64,000 nucleotides of DNA from Planctomycetota bacterium (GTDB taxonomy: Bacteria; Planctomycetota; Planctomycetia; Gemmatales; Gemmataceae). Shown here piece by piece: positions 1,318-20,096 of the stretch; the first letter of the stretch is position 1, and each line of letters begins with the position of its first letter. The position numbers were made by a program, and so were the translations under genes. The notes beneath the pieces are model-generated. The model saw only the letters and a program-made list of their open reading frames with translations, was not told the origin of the DNA and made no database searches. The stretch covers positions 1 to 64,000 of the forward strand of contig JAKBAI010000002.1 of NCBI GenBank assembly GCA_021809185.1. The letters run 5' to 3'.

Positions 1318-4161
1318 TTATTGCTTATCCATAGATGAAACCACAGGGGATGAAACCACGGGGGTTGGATCGGTTGTTGTGGGCGAATCATTATGAAAAT
1401 GCCAGAAGCGCCAGAGATGAATACCGATCAAGAAGCTAAATCCAGCTACGAACGAAACAAGAAGTAATGGTACCCACGATTCCAGAACGGTATAAATTGG
1501 CGATTGCATGAGAAATAGAGGGAGTGCCAGAACGAGCTGTTCCCAGCGTGTATGATTCGTCGCAAAGCGAATGAGGAGCAGAATACTTGGCAAACAAATG
1601 AATTGGCTGATGAGAAGCGGCCAGAACGGTGCGGAAATAATCGGATGTTTTCGCTTCGTGGGCAAAGCGGGGGGTTCATCGAGCCAGTACAACGAGATAC
1701 CCGCCGAGGAGAAGGATTTAGAAAATAACGGGAGAGAGATCGAAGAAGAACGATTCGAAAAAGTAATGGGAGAAGAGAAAAAAGTAGTAATCATGTTGTC
1801 GGACAAAATTCCTTCTTTTTGTAGTTCGCTACGCAGAGCACCGAGTTGTTCTCCTATTTGTTGATATTTCAGATGATCCCAGCTATCATCGCGGTGAAAG
1901 AGCTGATCATATTCTGCTTCGAGAAACCAGTAGGAAATCTGCCAATCGAGCCGGGACAAAAGTGCCGATTGTGGCTGAGACGATTTATTTTGAGTTGATG
2001 GCGCATTGGAGAATGGAGCAAATGGAGTAATTGCGGGATCTTTGAGATTATTACTTAGTAGAGAGTCCTTCAATTCTTGGCGGAGTTGAATCAAGTGTTT
2101 CAGCTCGGCTAAACGAACCTCGGCGAGAGGGCTAACCGATAGGAGATCCTGGCGCGTGGCCAATCGATAATCTTCCGGTAAATCGAGCCGAAACCACTGT
2201 TTTCTGGGATGCAATTGCTGATGATCTTGAAACAAGGAAGGGGTATTCCAGATAGGTAAGTCCATAGAATCTTCCCAGCGCGTGGTAATCTCGAAGATAC
2301 AAATATCAGAAAGGGGGGAAATAGGAATCTGTAATCTGGTCGTCAGAGGATCGATGATTGGTATCTTATGCTGATTGATCAAAACGCTTTGCAAAGTCTG
2401 TCTGTCATGAATCTGTAACAACAACGGGGCGGGAGCTACCGAAGGGGGAACATGAACAAGATAGCGTGAAGTTTGTTGCCAGCTATGGTTGTTGCGATTT
2501 AATTGATGGCCTGCGAGCAAGATCGGTGATACGGAACGATTCTCTGCGATGCGCTCGTTCTTCTCCTGAGGAGAAAAAGTAAACAGAAGTTTCGGTACTG
2601 GGTCAGTGCTGATAAATCGGGTCATCTCCGCTAGACCGGCACGGGGTGGAGTTAAGATAGGAGCTGAAGGGGGAGTTAAGACAGGAGCTGAGGTGGGCGG
2701 CGATTGGATCAGCTGAAAACCGTTGTTTTTAAATATGCTAGCGCGCGTCAAATGCCAGTCTAAGCGATACTCGATCGGCACGATGGGTAAATTGCCTTGC
2801 AGTAGAATGAGTTGCGGCAGTTGCAGTGAAGCAGTTGTCGCAAAATTTCTAGTCGCGCTCAGAGTGAATGATACCGCCCCGGTAGGGGAATGGAGCGAAT
2901 GAGGATCGGGAAGAACGATCGGCCATTGATTGGCATCTTTGGTGGTGATAGGAGCAGGTCCAGATGCGGTCTGAGCGAGTAATTGCGTGGTAAAGCCGCT
3001 CGATTGGAGAAGTTGAAACTTCAGTTTCGCAGCACGATTTTGTGGCTGGACTATTTGAATCGACCATTCGATCTGGAGTTGATCTCCAAGCCGATTTACT
3101 TTTTGCAGCAGTTTAGTTTGGATCGAAGCAGGGGGTAATAATTGAATGATGCCACGATCATCGCTGTGGGTACTTTGATAATGAATGCCGGGTTCTTTGC
3201 TGGAAAGATGGGTGATCCCGGTTAACGAAACATCTCGATAACCCCAGCTCGATGGTAACACCAGATCCCAACTGTTTTGTACCTTGGCAATCCCCGGACA
3301 TCGGATAGGGATGAGAGGGATTTCTTGGATATTTTCTGGAGTAGACGGTAATTCCCCCCAGCAATCGACTTCGATTGTAGCGGGGAGTTCTGCTGTCGGA
3401 TATTTGAACCATATTTGTAATCGATTGCCAGTGATCGACCAGGAATGCAGTTGCCGCGCATGAATTTCCCGAACTTGATAGTTGTTCGGTAGTTCACATT
3501 CGAGCAAAGAAAGTAAAGAAGAGGTAGATGAGACCGAGTTTGCTTTCCAAATGCTATGAATATGAAAGCGATAAGATCCTGGGTTGATCTGAATGGTCGA
3601 TAGATGTTGACAACTATTCTGATTTTGCGGTATTTTCAATTCTGGGCGCAAAGAGGGAATTTGCAGGCGAAGAGATTGAAAAAGTTTTACAGCAGTAAGT
3701 GCTGGTCCCCAATTGAATTTTTTCCAAGTTTCTTGGAATGTGGTCAGTGTGGTAAGTTCACTGACTCCATGGATTTCTGTTTTCTCTGCAAATTCCATAT
3801 CATCGCTGCCAAGAGCGATTTGTGTTGGTGAACTGGGATCATCGAGCGAATACGGGATCGTTAACCAGGGGCGATTACTATTGAACTGGCGAGGCACTAA
3901 CTCCAAATAAAGACGGGCAGGGGTGGTCAGCGCCATTTGTAACTGGACGGTCAGTTTTTGCTGGTTCGGAGACTTTGCTAAATCTTGCAGATACCAGGCA
4001 CGGATCCAACTAGGAGGGGGATTGAGTTGAGGGGTAATGGTTCTCAATTCTAACCGGACGATTTCTAGATTTTTCGGGACTGCTAGATGAATTTGCCGTA
4101 ACCAATTCTGCCCTGGACGAATCTCGAATACGGAATAGAGACTATTCATTTGCCGATTCAA
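1318..4161 (-). CDS. large beta-rich envelope protein, C-terminal portion after an in-frame TGA
   Basis: The 947-codon ORF can start only at TTG 4161 or ATG 4149; neither has a convincing Shine-Dalgarno sequence and there is no signal peptide. It is in the same frame as the 1613-aa ORF upstream, separated by one TGA plus three codons. Its first 130 residues (LYSVFEIRPG, NRPWLTIPYS) resemble the segment that follows the first beta-domain in the upstream ORF (ARYRFDFNLE, NRPWLSPAIS), so it looks like the continuation of an interrupted domain. The middle is long and beta-rich, with a P-rich linker near residues 490-510. Residues 640-800 contain short helical stretches, and about residues 855-930 hold two hydrophobic segments followed by a short polar tail. 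The likely role is a membrane-anchored periplasmic protein; the exact function is unknown. Confidence 0.7.
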   Translation of the reverse strand: MNRQMNSLYSVFEIRPGQNWLRQIHLAVPKNLEIVRLELRTITPQLNPPPSWIRAWYLQDLAKSPNQQKLTVQLQMALTTPARLYLELVPRQFNSNRPWLTIPYSLDDPSSPTQIALGSDDMEFAEKTEIHGVSELTTLTTFQETWKKFNWGPALTAVKLFQSLRLQIPSLRPELKIPQNQNSCQHLSTIQINPGSYRFHIHSIWKANSVSSTSSLLSLLECELPNNYQVREIHARQLHSWSITGNRLQIWFKYPTAELPATIEVDCWGELPSTPENIQEIPLIPIRCPGIAKVQNSWDLVLPSSWGYRDVSLTGITHLSSKEPGIHYQSTHSDDRGIIQLLPPASIQTKLLQKVNRLGDQLQIEWSIQIVQPQNRAAKLKFQLLQSSGFTTQLLAQTASGPAPITTKDANQWPIVLPDPHSLHSPTGAVSFTLSATRNFATTASLQLPQLILLQGNLPIVPIEYRLDWHLTRASIFKNNGFQLIQSPPTSAPVLTPPSAPILTPPRAGLAEMTRFISTDPVPKLLFTFSPQEKNERIAENRSVSPILLAGHQLNRNNHSWQQTSRYLVHVPPSVAPAPLLLQIHDRQTLQSVLINQHKIPIIDPLTTRLQIPISPLSDICIFEITTRWEDSMDLPIWNTPSLFQDHQQLHPRKQWFRLDLPEDYRLATRQDLLSVSPLAEVRLAELKHLIQLRQELKDSLLSNNLKDPAITPFAPFSNAPSTQNKSSQPQSALLSRLDWQISYWFLEAEYDQLFHRDDSWDHLKYQQIGEQLGALRSELQKEGILSDNMITTFFSSPITFSNRSSSISLPLFSKSFSSAGISLYWLDEPPALPTKRKHPIISAPFWPLLISQFICLPSILLLIRFATNHTRWEQLVLALPLFLMQSPIYTVLESWVPLLLVSFVAGFSFLIGIHLWRFWHFHNDSPTTTDPTPVVSSPVVSSMDKQ

Positions 4162-4173
4162 AGACCAAGATCA
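4159..4173 (-). other. in-frame TGA between two ORFs of one reading frame
   Basis: On the minus strand the frame reads I-R-S-W, TGA (4173-4171), S-W-S, then the TTG used as the next start. The ORF ends at 9012 and 4161 are 4851 bp apart, a multiple of three, so no frameshift separates the two parts. The stop falls inside a domain rather than at a domain boundary. Possible explanations are a nonsense mutation, stop readthrough, a sequencing error or true reinitiation. Confidence 0.85.
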
Positions 4174-7100
4174 CCACGAGCGAATGTTGATACTTTCGGG
4201 GTTCGTTTGCCTTGTTTCTTGCCAGCGCAACAATATCTGTTTCGAACGGCCTAGTTCTGCCTCCAAGATCGATTGCTGTTTTTCGTCACGGATGAAGAAT
4301 TGACCACGCCATTGATTAAAATCGAGTTGTTGCCAGATTTTCTCTGGCCCGCGGATGCGCAGTTGAGTTTGGCCTATTTCTGGAATACCAAATCGGATTT
4401 CACGCTCATTGCGGCTGCCGTGAATCGGGACGAAAAACTTTAACTCCAGTTGATGTTCCCCAACACTGGGAAGTTCAAAAATAAGACCGTCATCGCTTAT
4501 TTGCGGATAGATGGGGGTACCGTTACAGGTCGATTCTTGTAAGCGAATTTGAGTGAACGGGATGATTATTTTCTTAGTAGTTTCCGAAAAACGTTTCACG
4601 AGCAGACTCGCTTGGATTTCCAGAAAATCGTCACGAATGCGCCCTTCATAACGGCTACGGATCATCAGTGCTGGTGGTAACTGAAGCGGGTTATCGAGAT
4701 AGTCCTGCATGGCGTTCAGGAGTGTTTGCGGTGCAGCGACGGTTCCCGCGCTACTGTTTCCTGTTTCACTTTCCGCAGGGCGGAGTTCATAAACGGTAGG
4801 AATTTCCGGAGAGAGAGCAAGCAACGGCTGCAAAAATAGACAGGTAATGCCAATAATCAGCGGAGAATTTCGAAAAGGGGTAACCGGACCGTTCGAGGTG
4901 AGACTACCTTGCTCAGATATTGCCGATTTTTTCCCAATGATCGTGACCGGGCATGCACTGGGGGGCCTTTGTCGTATGATCCAGATTAGAAATGCAGAGG
5001 TTAGCCCCAGATAGGGAAACTCGATAAGTGGACGGAGATTAATCGGTATAAATATATACAAAATAAAAAATAGGGCACTCAGATAGATAAATCGGCGTGG
5101 TACACTTCTGGGCGAACGATTACAGATCACGCGGCAAATGAGTAATATGATTAAAGTCAAAGCAACACTTACCGAAGTTAAATCGCGTTTTCGAATTAAC
5201 AGAATTTGCTCGGTATTGGGGTAGAAATAGCAGTTATCGGCAAGCGATGTTTGCTGGAACAACGATAAACTATTCGTGAAATCTGTGTTATGGAGCCAGT
5301 TCCAAGAATTGATCCAGCGACCAGTACTGTCGCAACCAAAGCGGAAAGCAATACGCAAATCTGCTTGGAACTGCGCTGGAAATGCCGGAGCGGTTGATTG
5401 GTCGTTTTGCCAGTGGGAAACCATTTGCCGGGTGGTTAGTAAATTGCCATAGGGGGATTGCAGTATAAGCAATTGCGCTTCTAACAAGGAGTTTTTGGCA
5501 AGAAAACTATCTAGAGCAATATTCTCTTTTGCTAGTGCCCAGCGATCGATCAACAGAGGAACTTTTAACTGATTGGTACGGCACAGAAAATCACTTAGTA
5601 GTACTTTTTTTTGTTTGCTCCAGAGCTGTTGCAAAATCGGTTGATAATGGCTAGAAACATCCTTCAGATCGGCGGGGGATAGTCTGGAGTTAATACGAAG
5701 CGGGTGAGCTGAATCTTTTTCCGAAAACAGCAACTCTTTACTGGTAATGAGAGGAGGAGACTGGCAGGATAGAAAATCAGGATCGAGCTGCCAAAAACGG
5801 CGCAAGTCGATCGCAACGTTATCCAGAAGTGGGGGGGGAGACTTGAGATAAAAAATAGAACCTGTTTCAACGGGCAAATCATAAATGAGATCGACCCAGA
5901 TCGAACGGTTCACGGGCAGGGCTAGAGAATAATGCCTAAGAGAGTGCTGCGGATCCAGAACCGAAAGGAGCTTGCTACCACTCTGTTTACCAGAAATAAG
6001 CAATGAGCGTATCTTTGCTATAGCGGGTAAGGATAGAGTAATCCCTGCCGGACTTGGATTATGGATACAAAAAGATAGATAATTTTCACAATAGCTGCCG
6101 CCGCGATAACTGGTCAGCAACTGTGCCTGATCTGGCTCAGAAGTCGATTTCGGTCCGGGCAGGTTCCGGCATAACAGTGGGGGGCGCTGAGAAGCCGGCC
6201 AAGAATAGAGGAGATTTTTTTCATCATGGTTGTTCGCTTCTGCTGTCTCATAAATAAACTCGCCTCCAGAGTCCTCCTTCGATGATTGCAGATGATAGCC
6301 GGGGGGAATTTGAATCTCATTTTGTACCGCTATACCTCCAATCCTCTGAATAATGGGGATTGGCCAGAGCTTTTTATCGGGTATAATTTTTTTTGGTTTT
6401 AGCTGGATCCTTGGCTTTGCCATTTGGCTAGCGAGACAAGGGAAAGCGCTGGGGAGTGAATAAAATGGGGTCGGGGCGAGTAGTTCCAGCCAATGGGAGA
6501 AATGTTGCGTATCAGTTAGCTGGCCGCCATCGATTTGCCATGACCAGTGGAATCGAGACGAATCCTGAATCGGAGCAAGAAATTTTAGACGATACCACCG
6601 CGGGAAAACGGTTTGCTCTTTTGCCAAAGGGGAATTGGTCCATGGAAAAGAGGGCTTTGGGGAGACGTTTGGAAACTTATCAACTGCATCGTTGCGCGGA
6701 AGCTCGAATGGAGATGCGCTACCGCTTCCGGTAGTTGCACTGGCCACCAGCAGGAGCGAATTAGGCAACGCCGGAGATAATGCCAAACTCAACATAGCGC
6801 TGAGTTGTGTTATGGGAAGCGGGTCGATCGCTATAATCTGATTTTCAGCATGATTTTCTTCTGCGAGCAGATTTACCTCCCAGTGATCCAATGGCCGGCT
6901 GGTTTGCAAAATAAATTCTTTTTGATTTCCTGACCACGAAGGCAATTCGAGTTTGTTATCGATGAGAAAACCGTTATCGATTGAATGGATGCTAGTATAG
7001 CAACGAGGCGGGTGATCGGACGATTCCCGCTGCAGGATGATCGTGCCAACGGGCATTTGAGCGACGTAGGGAATATCGGCAGGGAGCATGTTTGTGCTCC

Positions 7101-9012
7101 CACTATTATTATTATTATTTGGGCTTGCGACTTTGTTTAATGCGGTTGCTGTAAGTAGATCGAAGGCCGTACTCTGCACATACGAGCGTAGATTATTTGC
7201 CACTTCCAGATGCAACGATCCAGTACAATTGATCACTTGTTCATTTAGCCAGTGAAATTGCGGAAACGTTACTGTTGCACTATTGCTCCTGTTTTGGAAT
7301 GGGATGGGTCGTATTAATTGAAAACTTAACTCAAAGGTTTGTTTGGCGTTTGGGGGATTGGTAAAATCGATTTGCAGTTGATTCTGTTTTTTGGAAAAAT
7401 CGGGTAATAATTCACGCGGTGTAATTTCCGGGGCGATCAGCTCGCAGTTGGGCGGGATTTGTAATTGGAGTTGTGGCAACAAGCCATGAGAAAGCTGGAT
7501 TTTGGCCCGGTATTGGATCGATTCCTGATCGCGGTTCAGCACCCAGCGTATATTCTCCTGGATGTTGAGCGGATGGTGCAGTGTTTGTAACTTTGCTTGC
7601 GGTCGGCCGGTTCCCTGGGTATTCGAGGTATGGATCGATTCGAGAAAAAGAATTCGCACCCCTTCGCTACTTGTTTCTATCTTATTCAGATGAAAAGAAT
7701 GCGGGTGCCAATCCACTAAGGTTAAATCAGGAGCAATACGACATTCCAAGGTTTCGCTTTGGAGAATACCGTTTTGGATGGAGATGGCAGGACTGAGCCA
7801 AGGCCGATTTTCACCCAATGGGATCGGCCCGCTGGCAATAATTTCAATTTTACCGGTGCGGAGCGGTTCGCGCAGATGAATCTGGAGGAGATTTTCTTTG
7901 TTATTGAGCCGAGTATCGCTCCAGCTCGCGATGTTATTTACAATGACATCCGTAGGGGTTAAAAGATTGGAATGAACTAGATTGATGGAATTCAGATCGG
8001 CCCTTGCAACTTCGAGATTGAAATCGAATCGATAACGTGCTTCATTCGCTGTTAATTCTTGAACGGATCGTAGTCGATAGCGTAGATTAGTTTGGTGATT
8101 CTCCAGATTGTTTTTGCGGAAAATGAGATCGAGTTGACTGCTATTGGCAAAACGAATTTGCCAGAGCAATTTGCGATGATTCTGGTCCCCCTGTTGGTTA
8201 ATGGGACCAATCAAAATCCCTTCGGAAGGATTGATGGTTGGTGTTAAGTTGTCTGGGATAGTCAAGGACAATACGGCATGGGGAGCGGGGGGTAAACGCA
8301 TCGGAAAGCGGATTTGCGACGGTTCTTCCAGACCGCGTATCGACCAATCGAAGACGAGAGTCGATTGCCGATTTTTTTCGACTAACAACTGAAACCGATT
8401 AGGAAAACGCCGATCGAGGGCACCAAGTATAGCGGTTTGGTTATCGCTCCATCTCATCTGATTGACTGCGAGCTGAAACGGCTCCAGGTCAAGCAACCCA
8501 GCTTGTGGATTTATTTTTAATATCCGCCATTCTCCATTACCGGTCAGATTATATCGGCCCTGCTCATCTTTTTGTAATTCGGCATTATATTGCATTTCGA
8601 TTAGTTTTGGCGGTGTTGCTTTGGCGCTTTGCCGAGCTTGAATTTCTGCAATTTGTTGGGTGAATTTCTTTTTGCTTATAAATCGGTAAATCTGTTCTGT
8701 GTTTTTTGCTAAAACGGTTTCCATTTCTTTAGCATCAACCGTTACGCTTTGAAAAATAGGATCAGAAAATATCTCGGGAGATGGGCTAGTCTTCGCTTGG
8801 GGAGTCGAGCGCTTCGATATGCCGCTGATCCCTTTCTTGGCAGGTTCTTTTGAAAAGGGGGACTGCGCGTTGGTGGTACCCGATTCCTGTTCGTTAGCTA
8901 GGATAATCGTGACGAGGAATAGGAGTACCCCAACCAAAACGATCCGGCCTAGTCCTGAACGCAGCGGGGACAAGTAAAACGGAATCGGATTGGATTTTGT
9001 CTTGTGTTGCAT
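4171..9012 (-). CDS. giant beta-rich envelope protein (two units, second one cut by TGA)
   Basis: 1613 residues. The N-terminus (about residues 20-40) is a signal anchor. A beta-domain (about 100-290) is followed by long beta-sandwich-like sequence, then three hydrophobic stretches at about 1280-1350. A fourth, signal-like hydrophobic segment (GITCLFLQPLLALSP, about 1388-1402) starts a second unit. That unit has a beta-domain (about 1435-1600) with GEHQLELKFFVP, comparable to GEHRLQIHTECL in the neighbouring 1258-aa protein. The ORF stops just after that domain and the frame continues in the next ORF, giving a roughly 2565-codon frame. The start ATG lies 108 bp downstream of the 1258-aa gene, consistent with one operon. 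No enzyme motif was recognised. A structural or scaffolding role in the planctomycete envelope is an inference from size, export signal and membrane segments. Confidence 0.8.
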   Translation of the reverse strand: MQHKTKSNPIPFYLSPLRSGLGRIVLVGVLLFLVTIILANEQESGTTNAQSPFSKEPAKKGISGISKRSTPQAKTSPSPEIFSDPIFQSVTVDAKEMETVLAKNTEQIYRFISKKKFTQQIAEIQARQSAKATPPKLIEMQYNAELQKDEQGRYNLTGNGEWRILKINPQAGLLDLEPFQLAVNQMRWSDNQTAILGALDRRFPNRFQLLVEKNRQSTLVFDWSIRGLEEPSQIRFPMRLPPAPHAVLSLTIPDNLTPTINPSEGILIGPINQQGDQNHRKLLWQIRFANSSQLDLIFRKNNLENHQTNLRYRLRSVQELTANEARYRFDFNLEVARADLNSINLVHSNLLTPTDVIVNNIASWSDTRLNNKENLLQIHLREPLRTGKIEIIASGPIPLGENRPWLSPAISIQNGILQSETLECRIAPDLTLVDWHPHSFHLNKIETSSEGVRILFLESIHTSNTQGTGRPQAKLQTLHHPLNIQENIRWVLNRDQESIQYRAKIQLSHGLLPQLQLQIPPNCELIAPEITPRELLPDFSKKQNQLQIDFTNPPNAKQTFELSFQLIRPIPFQNRSNSATVTFPQFHWLNEQVINCTGSLHLEVANNLRSYVQSTAFDLLTATALNKVASPNNNNNSGSTNMLPADIPYVAQMPVGTIILQRESSDHPPRCYTSIHSIDNGFLIDNKLELPSWSGNQKEFILQTSRPLDHWEVNLLAEENHAENQIIAIDPLPITQLSAMLSLALSPALPNSLLLVASATTGSGSASPFELPRNDAVDKFPNVSPKPSFPWTNSPLAKEQTVFPRWYRLKFLAPIQDSSRFHWSWQIDGGQLTDTQHFSHWLELLAPTPFYSLPSAFPCLASQMAKPRIQLKPKKIIPDKKLWPIPIIQRIGGIAVQNEIQIPPGYHLQSSKEDSGGEFIYETAEANNHDEKNLLYSWPASQRPPLLCRNLPGPKSTSEPDQAQLLTSYRGGSYCENYLSFCIHNPSPAGITLSLPAIAKIRSLLISGKQSGSKLLSVLDPQHSLRHYSLALPVNRSIWVDLIYDLPVETGSIFYLKSPPPLLDNVAIDLRRFWQLDPDFLSCQSPPLITSKELLFSEKDSAHPLRINSRLSPADLKDVSSHYQPILQQLWSKQKKVLLSDFLCRTNQLKVPLLIDRWALAKENIALDSFLAKNSLLEAQLLILQSPYGNLLTTRQMVSHWQNDQSTAPAFPAQFQADLRIAFRFGCDSTGRWINSWNWLHNTDFTNSLSLFQQTSLADNCYFYPNTEQILLIRKRDLTSVSVALTLIILLICRVICNRSPRSVPRRFIYLSALFFILYIFIPINLRPLIEFPYLGLTSAFLIWIIRQRPPSACPVTIIGKKSAISEQGSLTSNGPVTPFRNSPLIIGITCLFLQPLLALSPEIPTVYELRPAESETGNSSAGTVAAPQTLLNAMQDYLDNPLQLPPALMIRSRYEGRIRDDFLEIQASLLVKRFSETTKKIIIPFTQIRLQESTCNGTPIYPQISDDGLIFELPSVGEHQLELKFFVPIHGSRNEREIRFGIPEIGQTQLRIRGPEKIWQQLDFNQWRGQFFIRDEKQQSILEAELGRSKQILLRWQETRQTNPESINIRSW

Positions 9013-9120: not shown

Positions 9121-12100
9121 TTATGACCGATTCGCCGAAGACCAAATATCGGCCAGCGGCGGACTATCCATGGTACTCGGATCACGCACTTTAGCACGCT
9201 GCGAACTCCCAGATGGGCTTAATGAAACATCGAGCATGGTTCGCCGAAAACTCGATAAATGCCTGATGCGATACTGTTGCCGCCACGCTAAAAAGTAGCG
9301 TAATCCTAAAATAAACATTATGACGATATAGCCCGGTATACAGGCCATGATTATTTGATAACTAATCCGTGGATAAGATAGCCAAATCATGAACCACGTT
9401 ACAGCGATACAAGCTAGCACATAGCGCTGAGGAAGGTATTTTTTTCCTAGTCGGAAAAGGAAAAGCAAAATCAGGATACTGCTCCAACTAATGATCCAAC
9501 CTAGCCGAGATACCATGAGCCAGTGCACCGGAGCGATTTCTGCTTGTTGGAAACTTACCGATCGATCCATTAGATCCCAAGATCGTTCCATCATGTTGAG
9601 GGCTGAGCGTGCGCTAGGTTCAATTCCACTCAAAAACCAATTTTCCAATTCGGTACTACTATTGCTAGCGATATGGCGAGGGAGGCCGCGGTCAAAGCCC
9701 CAACTATCGTCCAAAACGATATCTCTTTGTAGACACAAGTCTTCCCAGGTTGCGGGGAACTGCCCTTGCCAGCGAACCGTGCCCATATTCCCCCCATTCA
9801 GAAAAATGGGGGGAACCCATCGAATTTTGGGCCCGAGGGTGCTTAACTGGTAACGCCATTCGATCATTAACGGTTCATTGTTGATTTGTTCTGGCAATGG
9901 TACTTTGGTCAAAAACTGTGCGGTATTTTGGTTCGGGAGTGCACTTAAATTGATCTTTTTGCCGTTGATCCAGGTTTCCAGATCGACCGTATTCTCTGGA
10001 AAGAGGATAGGCCAGTGAGAAGAATTCCAAGTGCGCAAAATTGTACGGATTCGATAGCGCTGTTGTACTTCGTTTTGCTGGACTTGAATAAAAGTCCGAA
10101 TGGGCCAGATCTGTTGCAGCGGAGTGTCGCTCTTTTCCCCTGCAATAGCGGTCGCTGCTGGATCCTCTGGGGGCACCGCTTCGGATTTTACCGATTCTTT
10201 GCCACTATCTATTGACGGATCAAACCGGAAACTCAAACCAGCGTTGCAGGTATCACTTTCCAAAACGAGAGCAGGAAGTTCGGGCTGATCGGCAACGATT
10301 TCTGGTGGTAGTGAACGCCAATCTTGGCCCAGGATCGGTTGTGGATTTGTACCACTATTGGGTAGATGGAACCAGATTCTCACTTTCATAGTTGATTGGC
10401 TTGTTTGTTCAGGCCAGAGCAAAGGAAGAGCGGTCGCCAGGGATTTGAGCGTTGCCAATTTGGGAGGCTTAGCCGTATATTCCAGTTGTAAGTCGAGCTG
10501 TTTCAGACCTTTTTCTTTTTGACTGATCAACCACTGGTGCCGATTCAGTGGTTCGATGGTAACGTTGTCGCTGGTGGTGGTGATGTTCACGGGCTGTGCC
10601 GATTGCAATTTTATCTGCCGTGGTAAAGCCAATGCCGATTGCAAATGGAGCGATTCTTGATAACGCAACGAATGGCCGAACCAGTGCAACGAAACAACCG
10701 TCCTGGCCTGGATGCGCGGCCGATTTGGATACCAGGAAAATTCGAGTTGTGCCGGGGTTTCGCGTTGCAAGCTCGTTACCCATTGATTGTCCTTTTTTGT
10801 TAGAGGATGGATCATTTGGCCGATTTTGTCTTTTTGCCAAATTTTTACCCCCCCTTGTAATTGATAATCGGATGGCAGCGAAACAGCAACCTCTGCCTCG
10901 CGTTCGTAGGTATTCAGAATCCGTGGTAATACCCACTTTTCTGTGCGCGTCATGCTGGTGTTTCCTGAATTGGCATCCTGCGTCGCTTCGAATAATCGTG
11001 CCGAATAGATCCCTTCCACCGTTAAAGTGAATAGGTTCTTTTGGGGTACCGATAACTGTACCTGAATTAAACGGCGCTGCGGATCGATATCGCGGATTTC
11101 ATTAATCGATTCGATCTGATCTAGTGGCAATATGGTCAGGTCACTCAATTCGCCTGAACGTGGAATTTCGAGGGTGAGCTGATCGATTTCTCGTCTTTGC
11201 GGTTGCAACCGGAATTCTGTTCTCAGTTTCCAGCCATTTTCACTCCAATCGAGTTGATATTTGCTACGGTTCTGGATCGTTCCTGGAACTGAAAAAATTT
11301 CAATTTCAAGAGGGGCGATCGGGATAGGATTTCCTTTTGCCAGATGCTGAAAGTGATATTGCATATCAAGGGGAGAAGTACTAGCGGTTTCCATTCGCCG
11401 GGTATCGCCATGAGGATGACCAACGATTCGAAAAATTGCAGGGTATTTAATGTGGATTATTCCTTCGCTTATGGGAATATCGAGTGCTAGGGCAGGCAGG
11501 ATAGCAATTGGTAGCCGGGCACGCGGATCATTGCGTTTATTCCCACCGGGATTATTTTGTGGCCGTTGCCGCCGATCGGTTACCAGGAGTTGCAGATTTT
11601 TGGGGACCGATTCTCGAAAGATAATCGACCAGACTCCCGGTTGATTCGCGGCTGGTCGAATAAGGGTTGGTAACTGATCAAAAGGGAGTTCAATCGGCTT
11701 ACTCGCAGTATCAGGGCTTGCAGGAGAATAGGAGCGGATATTGATCTCCGCACTGGCAGGTGCGGCAATTTTGAATGTTTTGCCTGGACCCCCCAGATGA
11801 ATTTTAGTTTCGCTTTGAATTTCGTTATCGCTAATGGTTACCGTTGTTTCCAAGCTCTGAGAGGTCAAGGCTTTGGGGGCATTCGTTTGCAAATTTTCCC
11901 ATTGCAAAGCAAACCAGCGAACGGCTCCTAGAGGCAGCCCTTCTGCCCGTTGCAACTGATCGCTGGTAACTGTCCGTTGATCCGGGAGGGTATCTCCATT
12001 ATTCGTGCCATTATTCGCATTATTTTTCGCGCTATTTTCTTTGCGGATTAGTGTAAATTGCCGGATACCATCAAACGGGCGGAAGTGTAGAAGAGTGATG

Positions 12101-12897
12101 GGCGACCCGCTTGATTGGAGTTCAAACCCGACTTCGTTCCCTTTCTCTCCCAAGCTATTAATTAAGCATTCGGTGTGAATTTGCAACCGGTGTTCTCCCG
12201 CTTGCTCGACCAGTACTTTTAGCCCGTCCTCCCCTGGAATGAGAAACGGCAATTGGCCATCTTCCCACTGAGCGTCAAAGGTCTGTGCCTTCTGAAGTCC
12301 TAAAAATAGGATCGTATTTGCCTCTGTCGTCCGGCAACGGTAGATGAGATGGAGATGCACCACGCGGGCTTTACCGCGCTCCTCGATCGTTCCTTCAATT
12401 TTACACTCGCTCGGCGGCCCCGCTTTTTCCGATTTGATTTTGCGTTTTAGATTGTCGATCTGGTCCAGTAATTGTTGATATTTTTCTAGGGTCAACCAGA
12501 TATGTTCCTTGGCTGATTCATTGCTTGACTTTTGACCTACCGATAGGCTGTCCCCGGTTCCAGATGATCCAGATGATTGCTTGACCGGAACTTTTTCTTT
12601 GTTCGAAGAGAGATCCAGATTATTGGCGTCAACCGGTTTTCTGGTTCCTTGCTGCGAATCTTTTATGGTTGTTTTATCTGATTTGGTATCTTCAACTTTG
12701 GGATTTTTTAGTTGCTTTTTGTTTTTGTTATCGCTCTTTTTATCGCTATTATTGTTAATAGGAAGGGGTTTTGATTTTGCTGTGGATTGGGCAAACAGAC
12801 CTCCAAATTTACTTTTCCCCGAAGTTGAAAGTAAAAGTGCGGATATAAGCAATAGCAATAGACAGCAGCGAACCTCTTTTTGCTTTGGATAAACCAT
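9121..12897 (-). CDS. large secreted/membrane-anchored beta-rich protein (1258 aa)
   Basis: The N-terminus has a clear signal peptide (about residues 10-36, CCLLLLLISALLL). A low-complexity K/N/S/D-rich linker to about residue 135 follows. A short helical segment (LEKYQQLLDQIDNLKRKI, about 140-157) precedes a beta-domain (about 165-270) with GEHRLQIHTECL. The rest is beta-rich up to two or three hydrophobic segments (about 1120-1205), and ends in a charged cytoplasmic-like tail. This is the same plan as each half of the neighbouring giant reading frame, so the three units look paralogous by architecture. A CAGGA motif precedes the start. The function is unknown; export and anchoring are supported by the sequence. 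Confidence 0.85.
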   Translation of the reverse strand: MVYPKQKEVRCCLLLLLISALLLSTSGKSKFGGLFAQSTAKSKPLPINNNSDKKSDNKNKKQLKNPKVEDTKSDKTTIKDSQQGTRKPVDANNLDLSSNKEKVPVKQSSGSSGTGDSLSVGQKSSNESAKEHIWLTLEKYQQLLDQIDNLKRKIKSEKAGPPSECKIEGTIEERGKARVVHLHLIYRCRTTEANTILFLGLQKAQTFDAQWEDGQLPFLIPGEDGLKVLVEQAGEHRLQIHTECLINSLGEKGNEVGFELQSSGSPITLLHFRPFDGIRQFTLIRKENSAKNNANNGTNNGDTLPDQRTVTSDQLQRAEGLPLGAVRWFALQWENLQTNAPKALTSQSLETTVTISDNEIQSETKIHLGGPGKTFKIAAPASAEINIRSYSPASPDTASKPIELPFDQLPTLIRPAANQPGVWSIIFRESVPKNLQLLVTDRRQRPQNNPGGNKRNDPRARLPIAILPALALDIPISEGIIHIKYPAIFRIVGHPHGDTRRMETASTSPLDMQYHFQHLAKGNPIPIAPLEIEIFSVPGTIQNRSKYQLDWSENGWKLRTEFRLQPQRREIDQLTLEIPRSGELSDLTILPLDQIESINEIRDIDPQRRLIQVQLSVPQKNLFTLTVEGIYSARLFEATQDANSGNTSMTRTEKWVLPRILNTYEREAEVAVSLPSDYQLQGGVKIWQKDKIGQMIHPLTKKDNQWVTSLQRETPAQLEFSWYPNRPRIQARTVVSLHWFGHSLRYQESLHLQSALALPRQIKLQSAQPVNITTTSDNVTIEPLNRHQWLISQKEKGLKQLDLQLEYTAKPPKLATLKSLATALPLLWPEQTSQSTMKVRIWFHLPNSGTNPQPILGQDWRSLPPEIVADQPELPALVLESDTCNAGLSFRFDPSIDSGKESVKSEAVPPEDPAATAIAGEKSDTPLQQIWPIRTFIQVQQNEVQQRYRIRTILRTWNSSHWPILFPENTVDLETWINGKKINLSALPNQNTAQFLTKVPLPEQINNEPLMIEWRYQLSTLGPKIRWVPPIFLNGGNMGTVRWQGQFPATWEDLCLQRDIVLDDSWGFDRGLPRHIASNSSTELENWFLSGIEPSARSALNMMERSWDLMDRSVSFQQAEIAPVHWLMVSRLGWIISWSSILILLFLFRLGKKYLPQRYVLACIAVTWFMIWLSYPRISYQIIMACIPGYIVIMFILGLRYFLAWRQQYRIRHLSSFRRTMLDVSLSPSGSSQRAKVRDPSTMDSPPLADIWSSANRS

Positions 12898-15431: not shown

Positions 15432-18400
15432 ATGAATGTGATTTACAGGCTAAAGATTATCACTGCAATAACCTTGGTAGCAGCGATTATAACGGGAGCA
15501 TGGCTATGGGCCTTGGATTCCAAAGACAACAAAGGGATACCTAAGCTTTCTAAAGTAGATACAATTTTTGAGTCGAAAATTCAGAATGACGTTAATGCAG
15601 GTAAATTTACCAATTTATCTGTAGTTAGTTATCAAGGACCGGATCAGAGCCGATATGTTGCCTGGCAGGTCCAACCGAAATTAGATCCGGTTCCGGCAAG
15701 ACCAAGAGATGTGGCCATTTTGGTTGATACTTCAGCAAGCCAATCGGGGCGACCGTTTCAGCTCGCGAAGAGTATTACACGAGAATTTGTGCGTGAAGCA
15801 GCACAAACAGCGCCAGGGGATCGAGTTAACATCTGGACCGTGAATATTCCACAGGCATCTCAATCGTTGACTAAAGGATTTGTCAATGTCCAGGATAAAA
15901 GTTTGTCTAAATCCTTAGATGCATTAGATGAAGAATATCCATCGGGTGCCGTCGATCTGAAAACTACTTTAGAAAAAGTGGCACAAGAATTTTCTGGCAA
16001 AAATAGCCGGCAGCAAGTTATTCTGTATTTAGGCGATGGAGAAAGTGCATACCATGCTCTAACCGAAAAAGATCGATATACCCTATCTGATAAGCTATTA
16101 GGCTCCAAAATTTCATTTTTCGCGGTGCCATTGGGTTTGAATATTCACTCTAAAAATATTCACTCTTTGGTAAGTTCAACTGGGGGAGCGGTGGTACGGT
16201 TTTTTGGGGACGAGGTTCGCAAAGATAGCGAATTGTCGGTCCAGCCATTTATTGCGCGAATCAATAAAACGATGAGTGTTCCTGTTTTGCTACCAACCGA
16301 TTTCAAATTCCAGATAGAAGTAGAAGGATTTTTCCCAACCAAGTTACCCCCATTGCGAGCCGATTCGCCAACCTTGGTACTCGCGCGTTTGAAAGATTCA
16401 TTTCCTAAAGAAATTACGGCAACTCTGACAGGAAAGATTCTCGACAAAGAAGTGAAATTGAATCTGTCAGAAAAAGTACCTGCCTCTTCTGCCGATCATT
16501 TTTTCCTAGCGAATATGTTTCGGCAGTGGCAAAAATCTCCGTATCCCGATGCCCCAGCGTTGTTGCGATCCGATCGTACGTTAGCACTTTCCTTCGAGCA
16601 GAGTCGAATCGCAACCGAAGAACTGCGTATTCAAGGGGAATGGGCACTCAATTCTGGTCGCAACGATATTGCTAAAGAGATGTTCATGGCGGTGAAGCAG
16701 ATCGATCCAATGGATCGCGAAGCAGTGGCCGGTTTGAACTTGCTCGATAAGATCAATCGCGGCGAATTAAGCAGAGAACAACTCAATGCCATTCAAGGGA
16801 TCGAGAAAACGATCAAAAATGGTTCCAAAACCGCTTTGCAAGATATTGATAAGAAGAATGAAGTCCCCAAAACAGCACCACCGAAAGGGGGAAGCAATCT
16901 TCCTCCTAAGGGGAATTCCGGTGCGGGTACAGGGAACTTATTGGCCCAAGAACAGGCTCGCCGAGCGGTGATCGAGCAACAAATGAATCTGATGGTCGAA
17001 GAAACACTTCGACGTGCTCGCTCGCTATTTGCCAATAAAGATCCCGATGGTGCTAAACAAATTATTATGCAGCAACGCGACTCTGTAGCAGCCAATCCTG
17101 ATCTGAGCGACAAAGTTCGCAAAATATTGGATGTTAAGATGGAAGCCCTTCTTTCCGAAATCGGTAAACGGGCAGCAGATATTAAACAACAATTGGCTAA
17201 TGAACGAGAAAGCGTTGCTAGAGCCAAGGAAAAATTACTGAAAATCGAAGAGAAAAGTGCTCGCGAAGAACAGATCCGAGATCGTATTCGAGCTTTCTCT
17301 ACACTGATGAATCAGGCACGGTTTGAAGATGCTTATCGCGAAGCCCTTGTCTTGCAACAAGAATCGGTAAATAAAGGGGAACCGATTCCGATCGAAGCAC
17401 AAGCTGCGTATCAGATCGGGCAGGCAGCAAATAATTACCGCGAAGCACGCGAATTAGTGCGTATCCGTGAAGACCGATTCTTGCTAACGATGATGCAGGT
17501 AGAACGATCCCATATCCCTTATCCGGATGAACCGCCTGTGCACTTCCCACCTGCCAAAGTTTGGCGTGAAATGGTCAACTTGCGAAAAAAATATGCCACT
17601 ACCGATTTTCAAGGCGATCTGCCTGAAGCTCAAGAACGCCGTATGAATAATTTACGGCAAGCTCTTAATCGACCTATCGTTTTGGAAAAAGAAATTTCTG
17701 GTTCCCTGAAAGAAATCGTCGATATTCTGGAAGAGGTTTCCACTCCGCCTGAAGCGAAGAAGGATTCTAGTTTGGCAGTGAAAATTTTGATAAATTCAGC
17801 GAAATTGCAAGCAGCAAAAGGGGATGCTACCGCTAAGATTGAAGATGAACAAGTAAGATTACCAAAATTAACAGGGGCTTCCTTGTCAACGGCCTTGCGG
17901 CTTTTAACTGAACAGTTGAATGCTACCTATATTGTTCGCCGAGATTTTATTGAAATCACCTCAGCGGAAGCGGCCTTACGTGAAAAAGTGATTGGGGTAT
18001 ATCCAGTAGAAGACCTGGTTGTTCCTATTCCAAACTCGGTTAACCAGATGGCATTACGACAGAGCGTTTCGATTCTTGGTCAAACCTTCTCTCTTGGGGG
18101 CGGTTTTACAGGTCAACCGATTGCTGGAGCCTTTGGTGGCTTCGGTGGCTTCGGGTTCGGGGCCGCGGGTTTCGGTGCTGGTATCCGTGGTCAGGCAGGT
18201 ATTCAAGGGGGGCAGCAAAACGTTGGTGCTCTCTTCCAGGGTCAAAACGTGAACCTCGGAGCTGGTGGAGGGATCACCGGTTTCGGTGGGGGTAATCTCG
18301 GTCAGTTTGGTAACCTGGGGGGCCAATTTGGGTTCCAAGGGGGAAATCAAAGTACGATTCTTGTTTCTTTGATTCAACAGCTGATTGCACCGGGAGAATG

Positions 18401-20096
18401 GTTGAATGCTCAATCGATTCTTGGTGGACAAGGTCTGCAAAATCAGGGAGCGAACGGTAATGGTGGAGATCCTGCTGATCCTGCAGGAGGGGATGCCAAT
18501 CAACCCCTTTTAACTCGAGATATGCTTAACTCGCTTGGATACTACCCAGCGGCTCGAGCATTGGTGGTTCGGGGTACTTCACGATTCCACAAACAAAATA
18601 ACTCTCGGCTCAATTATAAATCGGGTGACAATGCTGCGGCTAGTTTGCCGATTCCACCCAAAAAAGATAAATTAGCTATGGGACAAGGACCGAAAGGGAA
18701 TCCTGGTCTCAATAAGAATCCAGGTAAAAATCCTGATCAGCTTGTCAAAATCAATCCACCTGCCAAAAATCTGGATCCAAAAGAGATTTGGAATGATGCC
18801 GTTGCCAAAGAAGTTACTGACCCAGGCTTAATCATTGCCTGTTCGGATGCTCTGGCAAAACTGCATAAATTCAAACACGCTGCGGAGCTTTTGAAAGCTA
18901 GTTTGCGAAAAGGGCTTACCCCAGAACCTTGGGCACAGGAAGCTTTGGCTCTTGCTCTTGAATCTAGCCAGGGTTCTCAGATCGAGTTGGAACGAGCTAA
19001 AGTATCCGGTATCGATCTAGATCCACAGAATGCTTCTGCTTATTTGCGAGCTGCCAAAGGGCTTGCAGAGATCGGACAACCAGAACGGGCAATCGCATTC
19101 TGCAAACAGGCATCCATGCTGCAACCAGAAATTGCCGATCCCTATCTCGATTCTCTGAAATATGCAGAAAATTTGAAGAAAGTCGATCCGAATCTTACCG
19201 CTTGGGCTGCTCGGGAAGTACTGGATCGAGAATGGCTGCAAGATACCAGTGAATTCCATAAATTGGCCAAGGTTCACGTACAAAATCTGATTAATAAATT
19301 ACAGAAGAGTGATCGGGGCCAGGAAGTTGGCAAGCTGCAAAAAGTACTTTCGGATTCTAACCAGCGGGATCTGGTCATTCAATTGCTCTGGTCCAACAGC
19401 GCAGACCTAGATTTATCTGTTCTTGAACCAAATGGTTCGGTCTGTTCTTATAACCAGAATAGGACTACAGGAGGTGGTACCCTGGATAGCGATAGTTTGG
19501 CTCAGACCGATGGGGATCATCGGGAACAGTATACCGCTGCTCAAGCCTTCTCCGGTGTTTATCAAGTTCGCGTTCGCCGAGTGTGGGGTAAACCTCTTGG
19601 CAATAAGGCATCAGTTAAAGTTATTCGCAATCAGGGCACACCCGAAGAATCAGTTGAACTATTTTCACTGGATCTATCCAAAAAAGATAGTTTGACCATT
19701 TCGGTCGATAAAGGTCGCCGCGTTGCTCTGGCACAATTACCCCCTCCTGCTGTAGGACTAACTGTCAATCGGAAGCCTGATGAAAACCAGGATGTTATGC
19801 GTAAGCTTCAGGCAATGACTCAACCCGGTTTCTCCGGTTTCGATGGGGGCTTTGGTTCTGCTACCAACAGCTTGACCTCTTCCGCTCTTAACCCGAACGA
19901 AGTGGTTCCGATGATCGGTCTTAAATATCAGACTCAGGTTTATCCTTCGATTTCAACGGGAATGCAGCTACAAGCAAGCATTGAAGTTGCCAATGGTACC
20001 AAAGGTTCCAATATGACGGTACGCCCGATTTACGAAACCTTTTCTAAGAAATCCACAGAAATTAAACTAGATCTGATTCCTGGTGGTGAAAGCTAA
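15432..20096 (+). CDS. giant von Willebrand A-domain protein with Gly-rich, repeat and DUF2135-like regions
   Basis: 1554 residues. A signal anchor is at 8-28. A VWA domain at about 90-290 carries a canonical MIDAS start (D99-T-S101-A-S103, DxSxS). Coiled-coil and P/G-rich sequence lie at about 440-640. About residues 790-870 resemble a short secretin-N-like module (LTEQLNATYIVRRDFIEIT). A Gly/Phe/Gln-rich stretch covers about 880-975. Helical repeats of TPR type lie at about 1120-1290, and about 1310-1430 is a DUF2135/YfaP-like domain (LLWSNSADLDLSVLEPNG). It is probably exported and membrane-tethered, binding metal and a protein ligand through the MIDAS; the role is unknown. AGGAG precedes the ATG by about 10 nt, and a strong terminator follows the gene. 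Confidence 0.85.
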   Translation: MNVIYRLKIITAITLVAAIITGAWLWALDSKDNKGIPKLSKVDTIFESKIQNDVNAGKFTNLSVVSYQGPDQSRYVAWQVQPKLDPVPARPRDVAILVDTSASQSGRPFQLAKSITREFVREAAQTAPGDRVNIWTVNIPQASQSLTKGFVNVQDKSLSKSLDALDEEYPSGAVDLKTTLEKVAQEFSGKNSRQQVILYLGDGESAYHALTEKDRYTLSDKLLGSKISFFAVPLGLNIHSKNIHSLVSSTGGAVVRFFGDEVRKDSELSVQPFIARINKTMSVPVLLPTDFKFQIEVEGFFPTKLPPLRADSPTLVLARLKDSFPKEITATLTGKILDKEVKLNLSEKVPASSADHFFLANMFRQWQKSPYPDAPALLRSDRTLALSFEQSRIATEELRIQGEWALNSGRNDIAKEMFMAVKQIDPMDREAVAGLNLLDKINRGELSREQLNAIQGIEKTIKNGSKTALQDIDKKNEVPKTAPPKGGSNLPPKGNSGAGTGNLLAQEQARRAVIEQQMNLMVEETLRRARSLFANKDPDGAKQIIMQQRDSVAANPDLSDKVRKILDVKMEALLSEIGKRAADIKQQLANERESVARAKEKLLKIEEKSAREEQIRDRIRAFSTLMNQARFEDAYREALVLQQESVNKGEPIPIEAQAAYQIGQAANNYREARELVRIREDRFLLTMMQVERSHIPYPDEPPVHFPPAKVWREMVNLRKKYATTDFQGDLPEAQERRMNNLRQALNRPIVLEKEISGSLKEIVDILEEVSTPPEAKKDSSLAVKILINSAKLQAAKGDATAKIEDEQVRLPKLTGASLSTALRLLTEQLNATYIVRRDFIEITSAEAALREKVIGVYPVEDLVVPIPNSVNQMALRQSVSILGQTFSLGGGFTGQPIAGAFGGFGGFGFGAAGFGAGIRGQAGIQGGQQNVGALFQGQNVNLGAGGGITGFGGGNLGQFGNLGGQFGFQGGNQSTILVSLIQQLIAPGEWLNAQSILGGQGLQNQGANGNGGDPADPAGGDANQPLLTRDMLNSLGYYPAARALVVRGTSRFHKQNNSRLNYKSGDNAAASLPIPPKKDKLAMGQGPKGNPGLNKNPGKNPDQLVKINPPAKNLDPKEIWNDAVAKEVTDPGLIIACSDALAKLHKFKHAAELLKASLRKGLTPEPWAQEALALALESSQGSQIELERAKVSGIDLDPQNASAYLRAAKGLAEIGQPERAIAFCKQASMLQPEIADPYLDSLKYAENLKKVDPNLTAWAAREVLDREWLQDTSEFHKLAKVHVQNLINKLQKSDRGQEVGKLQKVLSDSNQRDLVIQLLWSNSADLDLSVLEPNGSVCSYNQNRTTGGGTLDSDSLAQTDGDHREQYTAAQAFSGVYQVRVRRVWGKPLGNKASVKVIRNQGTPEESVELFSLDLSKKDSLTISVDKGRRVALAQLPPPAVGLTVNRKPDENQDVMRKLQAMTQPGFSGFDGGFGSATNSLTSSALNPNEVVPMIGLKYQTQVYPSISTGMQLQASIEVANGTKGSNMTVRPIYETFSKKSTEIKLDLIPGGES

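Follow-up and report, generated by a model that had tools for sequence, protein, structure and literature searches.

Two long open reading frames lie one behind the other on the minus strand of a Gemmataceae contig, and only a TGA and three codons stand between them. We asked whether they are two genes or one, and how the TGA is best explained if they are one. The window, meaning the whole stretch of DNA that was analysed, is 64,000 nucleotides long.

Two open frames in one register

The first-pass annotation had described an upstream ORF of 1613 aa beginning with ATG and a downstream ORF of 947 aa beginning with TTG, and both were recovered as described. The starts are 4851 nucleotides apart (9012 − 4161 = 4851 = 3 × 1617), which places both in the same frame, and the gap consists of the TGA plus the codons TCT TGG TCT.

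1318–9012, minus strand: whole frame of the giant envelope protein gene, interrupted by one TGA; one frame in relatives
4171–9012, minus strand: upstream open frame, 1613 aa, ATG start
4171–4173, minus strand: in-frame TGA, codon 1614; relatives carry Y, H, C, A, S, T, F or G in this column
1318–4161, minus strand: downstream open frame, 947 aa from TTG 4161 (or from ATG 4149)

The whole frame runs from the ATG at 9012 to the TAA at 1318 and comprises 2565 codons, stop counted; reading the TGA as a residue gives a single, TAA-terminated chain of 2564 residues. The TGA, found in the context CGC TCG TGG TGA TCT TGG TCT TTG, is the sole TGA that joins two long frames in the 64-kb window. All other in-frame joins there are TAG or TAA codons between short frames, with the longer piece measuring 102 to 207 codons. 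Genome-wide reassignment of UGA was rejected, since other genes of the window end in TGA and prfB was found.

Protein architecture and the internal repeat

The upstream frame encodes an N-terminal signal or anchor (hydrophobic residues 21–39), a beta-rich unit 1, middle hydrophobic segments (residues 1278–1296, 1308–1326 and 1383–1401) and the first part of unit 2. The downstream frame supplies the remainder of unit 2, followed by two C-terminal hydrophobic segments (residues 2463–2481 and 2513–2531). Hydrophobic segments at the N-terminus, at 1278–1401 and at 2463–2531 fit an exported, membrane-anchored protein, a localisation predicted from the sequence.

7204–8670, minus strand: repeat unit 1, residues 115–603, aligned with unit 2 by hhalign (E 4e-17)
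3262–4728, minus strand: repeat unit 2, residues 1429–1917, with the TGA inside; aligned by hhalign, beta-rich in the structure model

An internal repeat had been noticed earlier from the sequence, and profile-profile comparison of residues 115–603 with residues 1429–1917 bore it out. In hhalign the two units aligned with a probability of 98.9% and an E-value of 4e-17, and the alignment passes straight through the TGA position. Pfam and NCBIfam assigned no family to either half, and a search of the PDB with the junction profile gave no sequence match. The structure model of residues 1440–1880 (window positions 3373–4695, minus strand) was beta-rich; its mean pLDDT of 60 is only moderate, and it was relied on solely for that description. 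In Foldseek the unit 2 model weakly matched the beta-rich folds of an oligosaccharyltransferase subunit (ribophorin I/OST1) and of M1 aminopeptidases (E 2e-7 to 4e-5), but the TM-score was only about 0.27, at a model pLDDT of 60 and with no sequence match, so we treat the resemblance as a lead only and make no claim of membership.

The gene in related genomes

A single-sequence search found homologues in 67 of 95 genomes, and the junction profile (A3) matched 82 of the 102 genomes of the order. Homology to a giant Gemmataceae family extends along the whole length of the protein, both repeat units included. Members of full length each occupy a single frame of about 2150 to 2660 aa, and there are shorter forms of 1180 to 1990 aa; in all relatives, the shorter members among them, the segments that precede and follow the stop are adjacent within one frame. 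Aligning homologues across the TGA point had been proposed as the test by which a single-gene reading could be refuted. No relative carried two separate proteins divided at that point, and the two-gene alternative failed. Because both sides of the TGA lie within one open frame in relatives, some 80 other genomes of the order, the proposal of one 2565-codon gene rather than two was upheld.

Among the matches listed that span the junction, the frame was single and free of stops everywhere except in the present genome and in one other, G079. The profile search, in the matches listed, revealed the same in-frame TGA in none of the 101 other genomes of the order. In G079 the gene is frameshifted, with a stop about 110 codons beyond the TGA column. 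At that locus (L067, G079:C1:5600000-5610000) the giant gene and its upstream neighbour are both frameshifted in a genome that is otherwise contiguous, in 2 contigs, and the frameshifts look like sequencing error. We rejected the broken G079 copy as a second natural case, because the neighbouring gene is frameshifted too and the stop falls in another column.

The TGA sits in a conserved motif, R-E-A-x-x-W-D-L, between columns that are kept in relatives, and the W of the motif is invariant in the alignment. Across 44 aligned sequences, a few of which are second, weaker copies of the domain, the residues in the TGA column were Y (15), H (10), C (7), A (4), S (4), T (2), F (1) and G (1). Searched against the genome_contigs collection, the downstream ORF found no relative, and an N-terminal alignment found two loci.

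The surroundings of the gene are also shared with relatives.

9121–12897, minus strand: upstream neighbour, 1258-aa gene; in relatives its homologues directly precede the giant gene

Homologues of this neighbour were present in 28 of the 42 loci compared, and the giant gene (1318–9012) and the 1258-aa gene (9121–12897) form a conserved pair. In other genomes the junction profile also gave weak matches to frames of about 1100–1200 aa close to the giant gene, which suggests that the two members of the pair are distantly related. A gene of 1554 aa nearby on the opposite strand (15432–20096, plus) has a von Willebrand A domain at the N-terminus of its product (VWA_3, E 3e-10) and matches TPR weakly. 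The present protein shares with the unnamed giant envelope family its length, its two repeat units, its hydrophobic segments and its neighbouring 1258-aa gene, and differs in that a stop at this point occurs only in the present member.

Possible restart, readthrough or selenocysteine at the TGA

We weighed three ways in which the sequence beyond the TGA might still be translated, for which two short elements matter.

4169–4175, minus strand: GGTGATC, matching the 16S rRNA tail over 7 nt; overlaps the TGA and lies 7 nt before TTG 4161
4133–4147, minus strand: weak hairpin GAATA-GTCTC-TATTC after the TGA; agrees with the loose SECIS model and lacks the CARGUNYUG core of the family

A true split into two translated cistrons would call for termination at the TGA to be coupled to a new start at TTG 4161. 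It had been claimed that neither downstream start has a ribosome site; this was right for ATG 4149, which has no Shine-Dalgarno-like match, and wrong for TTG 4161, which has GGTGATC 7 nt upstream. Scored against the usual 16S tail, a match of at least 7 nt arises at 0.4% of random positions. The element, however, belongs to the extended tail without the GGAGG core and overlaps the stop codon, and both halves are in one frame in all relatives. The product of such a restart would begin inside unit 2, without an N-terminal hydrophobic segment or export signal; the absence of an export signal from the downstream ORF had been noted before, and we found no N-terminal hydrophobic segment in it. We consider restart quite improbable. 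Readthrough, whether regulated in some other way or occurring by chance (for example through tRNA-Trp), would yield some full-length protein from the UGA and is unlikely, if somewhat easier to entertain. Of the stop codons UGA leaks most, dN/dS remains below 1 for many in-frame stops in bacteria (PMC7918605), and the downstream frame is intact here. Against this, there was no structure beyond chance after the stop, no suppressor tRNA except tRNA-Sec among the tRNA loci examined (a subset of all tRNA loci), and no relative that conserves the stop among the matches listed.

Selenocysteine is a tempting reading, and in our judgement it is highly improbable. This genome does read some of its UGA codons as selenocysteine: it has selA, an adjoining SelB C-terminal part, tRNA-Sec (anticodon UCA) and a SelD with an in-frame TGA of its own, in the motif CAG-U-AGK. 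Of 213 columns, moreover, the TGA column alone has 7 or more Cys, and a hairpin 28 nt after the UGA satisfies the published loose general model of bacterial SECIS elements (PMC13188914). That loose model, however, was also satisfied by 29 of 137 nearby TGA triplets (21%). The apical core CARGUNYUG, present with covarying stem pairs in 27 of 27 distinct SECIS elements of the family SelD genes, is missing at the giant-gene TGA. A covariance model scored the SelD element at 39.2 bits and had no coding-strand match after the giant-gene TGA, although it was built from SelD elements only, this genome's included, and favours elements like them. An unconstrained fold after the TGA was no better than shuffles, and no Rfam elements were found at the stop. 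A strict rule for hairpins, with a Watson-Crick stem no shorter than 5 and a loop beginning G[GU], was passed by this site and by 1.1% of TGA sites; it was devised post hoc, and we give it little weight. The TGA column itself is mostly Y, H, A or S, and no other relative has a TGA there among the matches listed. Cys occurs in 7 of the 44 sequences, all in one clade on a separate branch, and the nearest relatives carry A and S; in a tree built without the TGA column the query groups with the A and S members, although its branch is long and its exact place unsure. Were selenocysteine nonetheless inserted, through a SECIS element unlike the SelD type of the family, the result would be a membrane-anchored protein of 2564 residues with beta repeats, a selenoprotein of very large size and apparently not an enzyme, which we regard as just as improbable.

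The Gemmataceae SelD genes served as the yardstick for these comparisons. SelD with an in-frame TGA was seen in this genome (G000:C49:1180-2118, L125) and in many other genomes of the family (L193–L225), with one TGA each. In their SECIS elements the CARGUNYUG apical core is invariant and stands at a fixed place, and the stems show compensatory changes across 27 distinct sequences. A TGA is absent from the best SelD of the genomes listed for genera g16 and g32. A separate frame in the present genome (G000:C246:204-632, L132) resembles formate dehydrogenase and has one in-frame TAG within the match. Like bacterial selenoproteins, the giant gene has an in-frame UGA in a Sec-decoding genome and some homologues with Cys in the column; unlike them, it has no SECIS element of the family type and no known redox motif, and its near relatives do not carry Cys.

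Three causes had been proposed for the TGA, namely a nonsense change, readthrough and a read error. Programmed readthrough and selenocysteine were not supported by these comparisons, and the nonsense change and the read error are the likelier causes.

Age of the interruption

No further stop or frameshift interrupts the 947 downstream codons. About 4.5% of random substitutions in this stretch would be nonsense, or about 1.3 per 1% of neutral divergence, and by a Poisson estimate that ignores indels, the divergence of a stop-free tail that had escaped selection is probably below about 2.3%. Since these codons are still open, the break would be young or absent from most cells.

Codon-position GC was similar upstream and downstream of the TGA. 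Leave-one-out profile scores dropped from the N-terminal to the C-terminal part in all members; the ratio for the query, 0.54, was the lowest and lay near those of divergent members (0.61 and 0.62). The query kept 56% of near-invariant columns downstream of the TGA and 81% upstream, and among 26 aligned members it had the fewest conserved residues downstream. This low conservation could mean a longer period of relaxed selection, although the profile ratio is near those of other divergent members; we take it as mild evidence against full constraint.

Discussion

The locus holds one gene with a private TGA, an intact downstream frame and no known recoding signal. The stop is private to the lineage and the gene is intact in relatives, a pattern expected of a pseudogene or nonsense allele. 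We consider it probable that this is one giant gene with a single private TGA, most likely a recent nonsense change that may be fixed in the strain or carried by part of the population and, next most likely, an erroneous base in the metagenome consensus. If the TGA is real, translation by the standard code would end at residue 1613. The truncated product would keep its N-terminal signal or anchor, unit 1 and the membrane segments in the middle and would lose most of unit 2 and the C-terminal anchor, and truncation would then mean a loss or reduction of function. We infer both the recent origin of the TGA allele and its loss of function.

The case resembles the in-frame stops and young pseudogenes described in bacterial genes (Belinky et al. 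2021, PMC7918605), in which likewise a single, private and apparently young nonsense codon interrupts an otherwise open, alignable frame. It differs from them in that the gene is unusually long (2565 codons) and is known here from one assembly.

The comparison with SelD provides a worked test for rejecting a tempting selenoprotein call in a UGA-decoding genome: the standard of comparison is the set of SECIS elements from the family to which the organism belongs, not a loose general model. The interruption is ordinary in kind. The gene family itself, judged by sequence similarity, is spread across Gemmataceae and is undescribed in the libraries searched (Pfam and NCBIfam). Annotation would wrongly list two proteins at 1318–9012, where this giant Gemmataceae family, which has no Pfam or NCBIfam entry, is represented by a single conserved gene.
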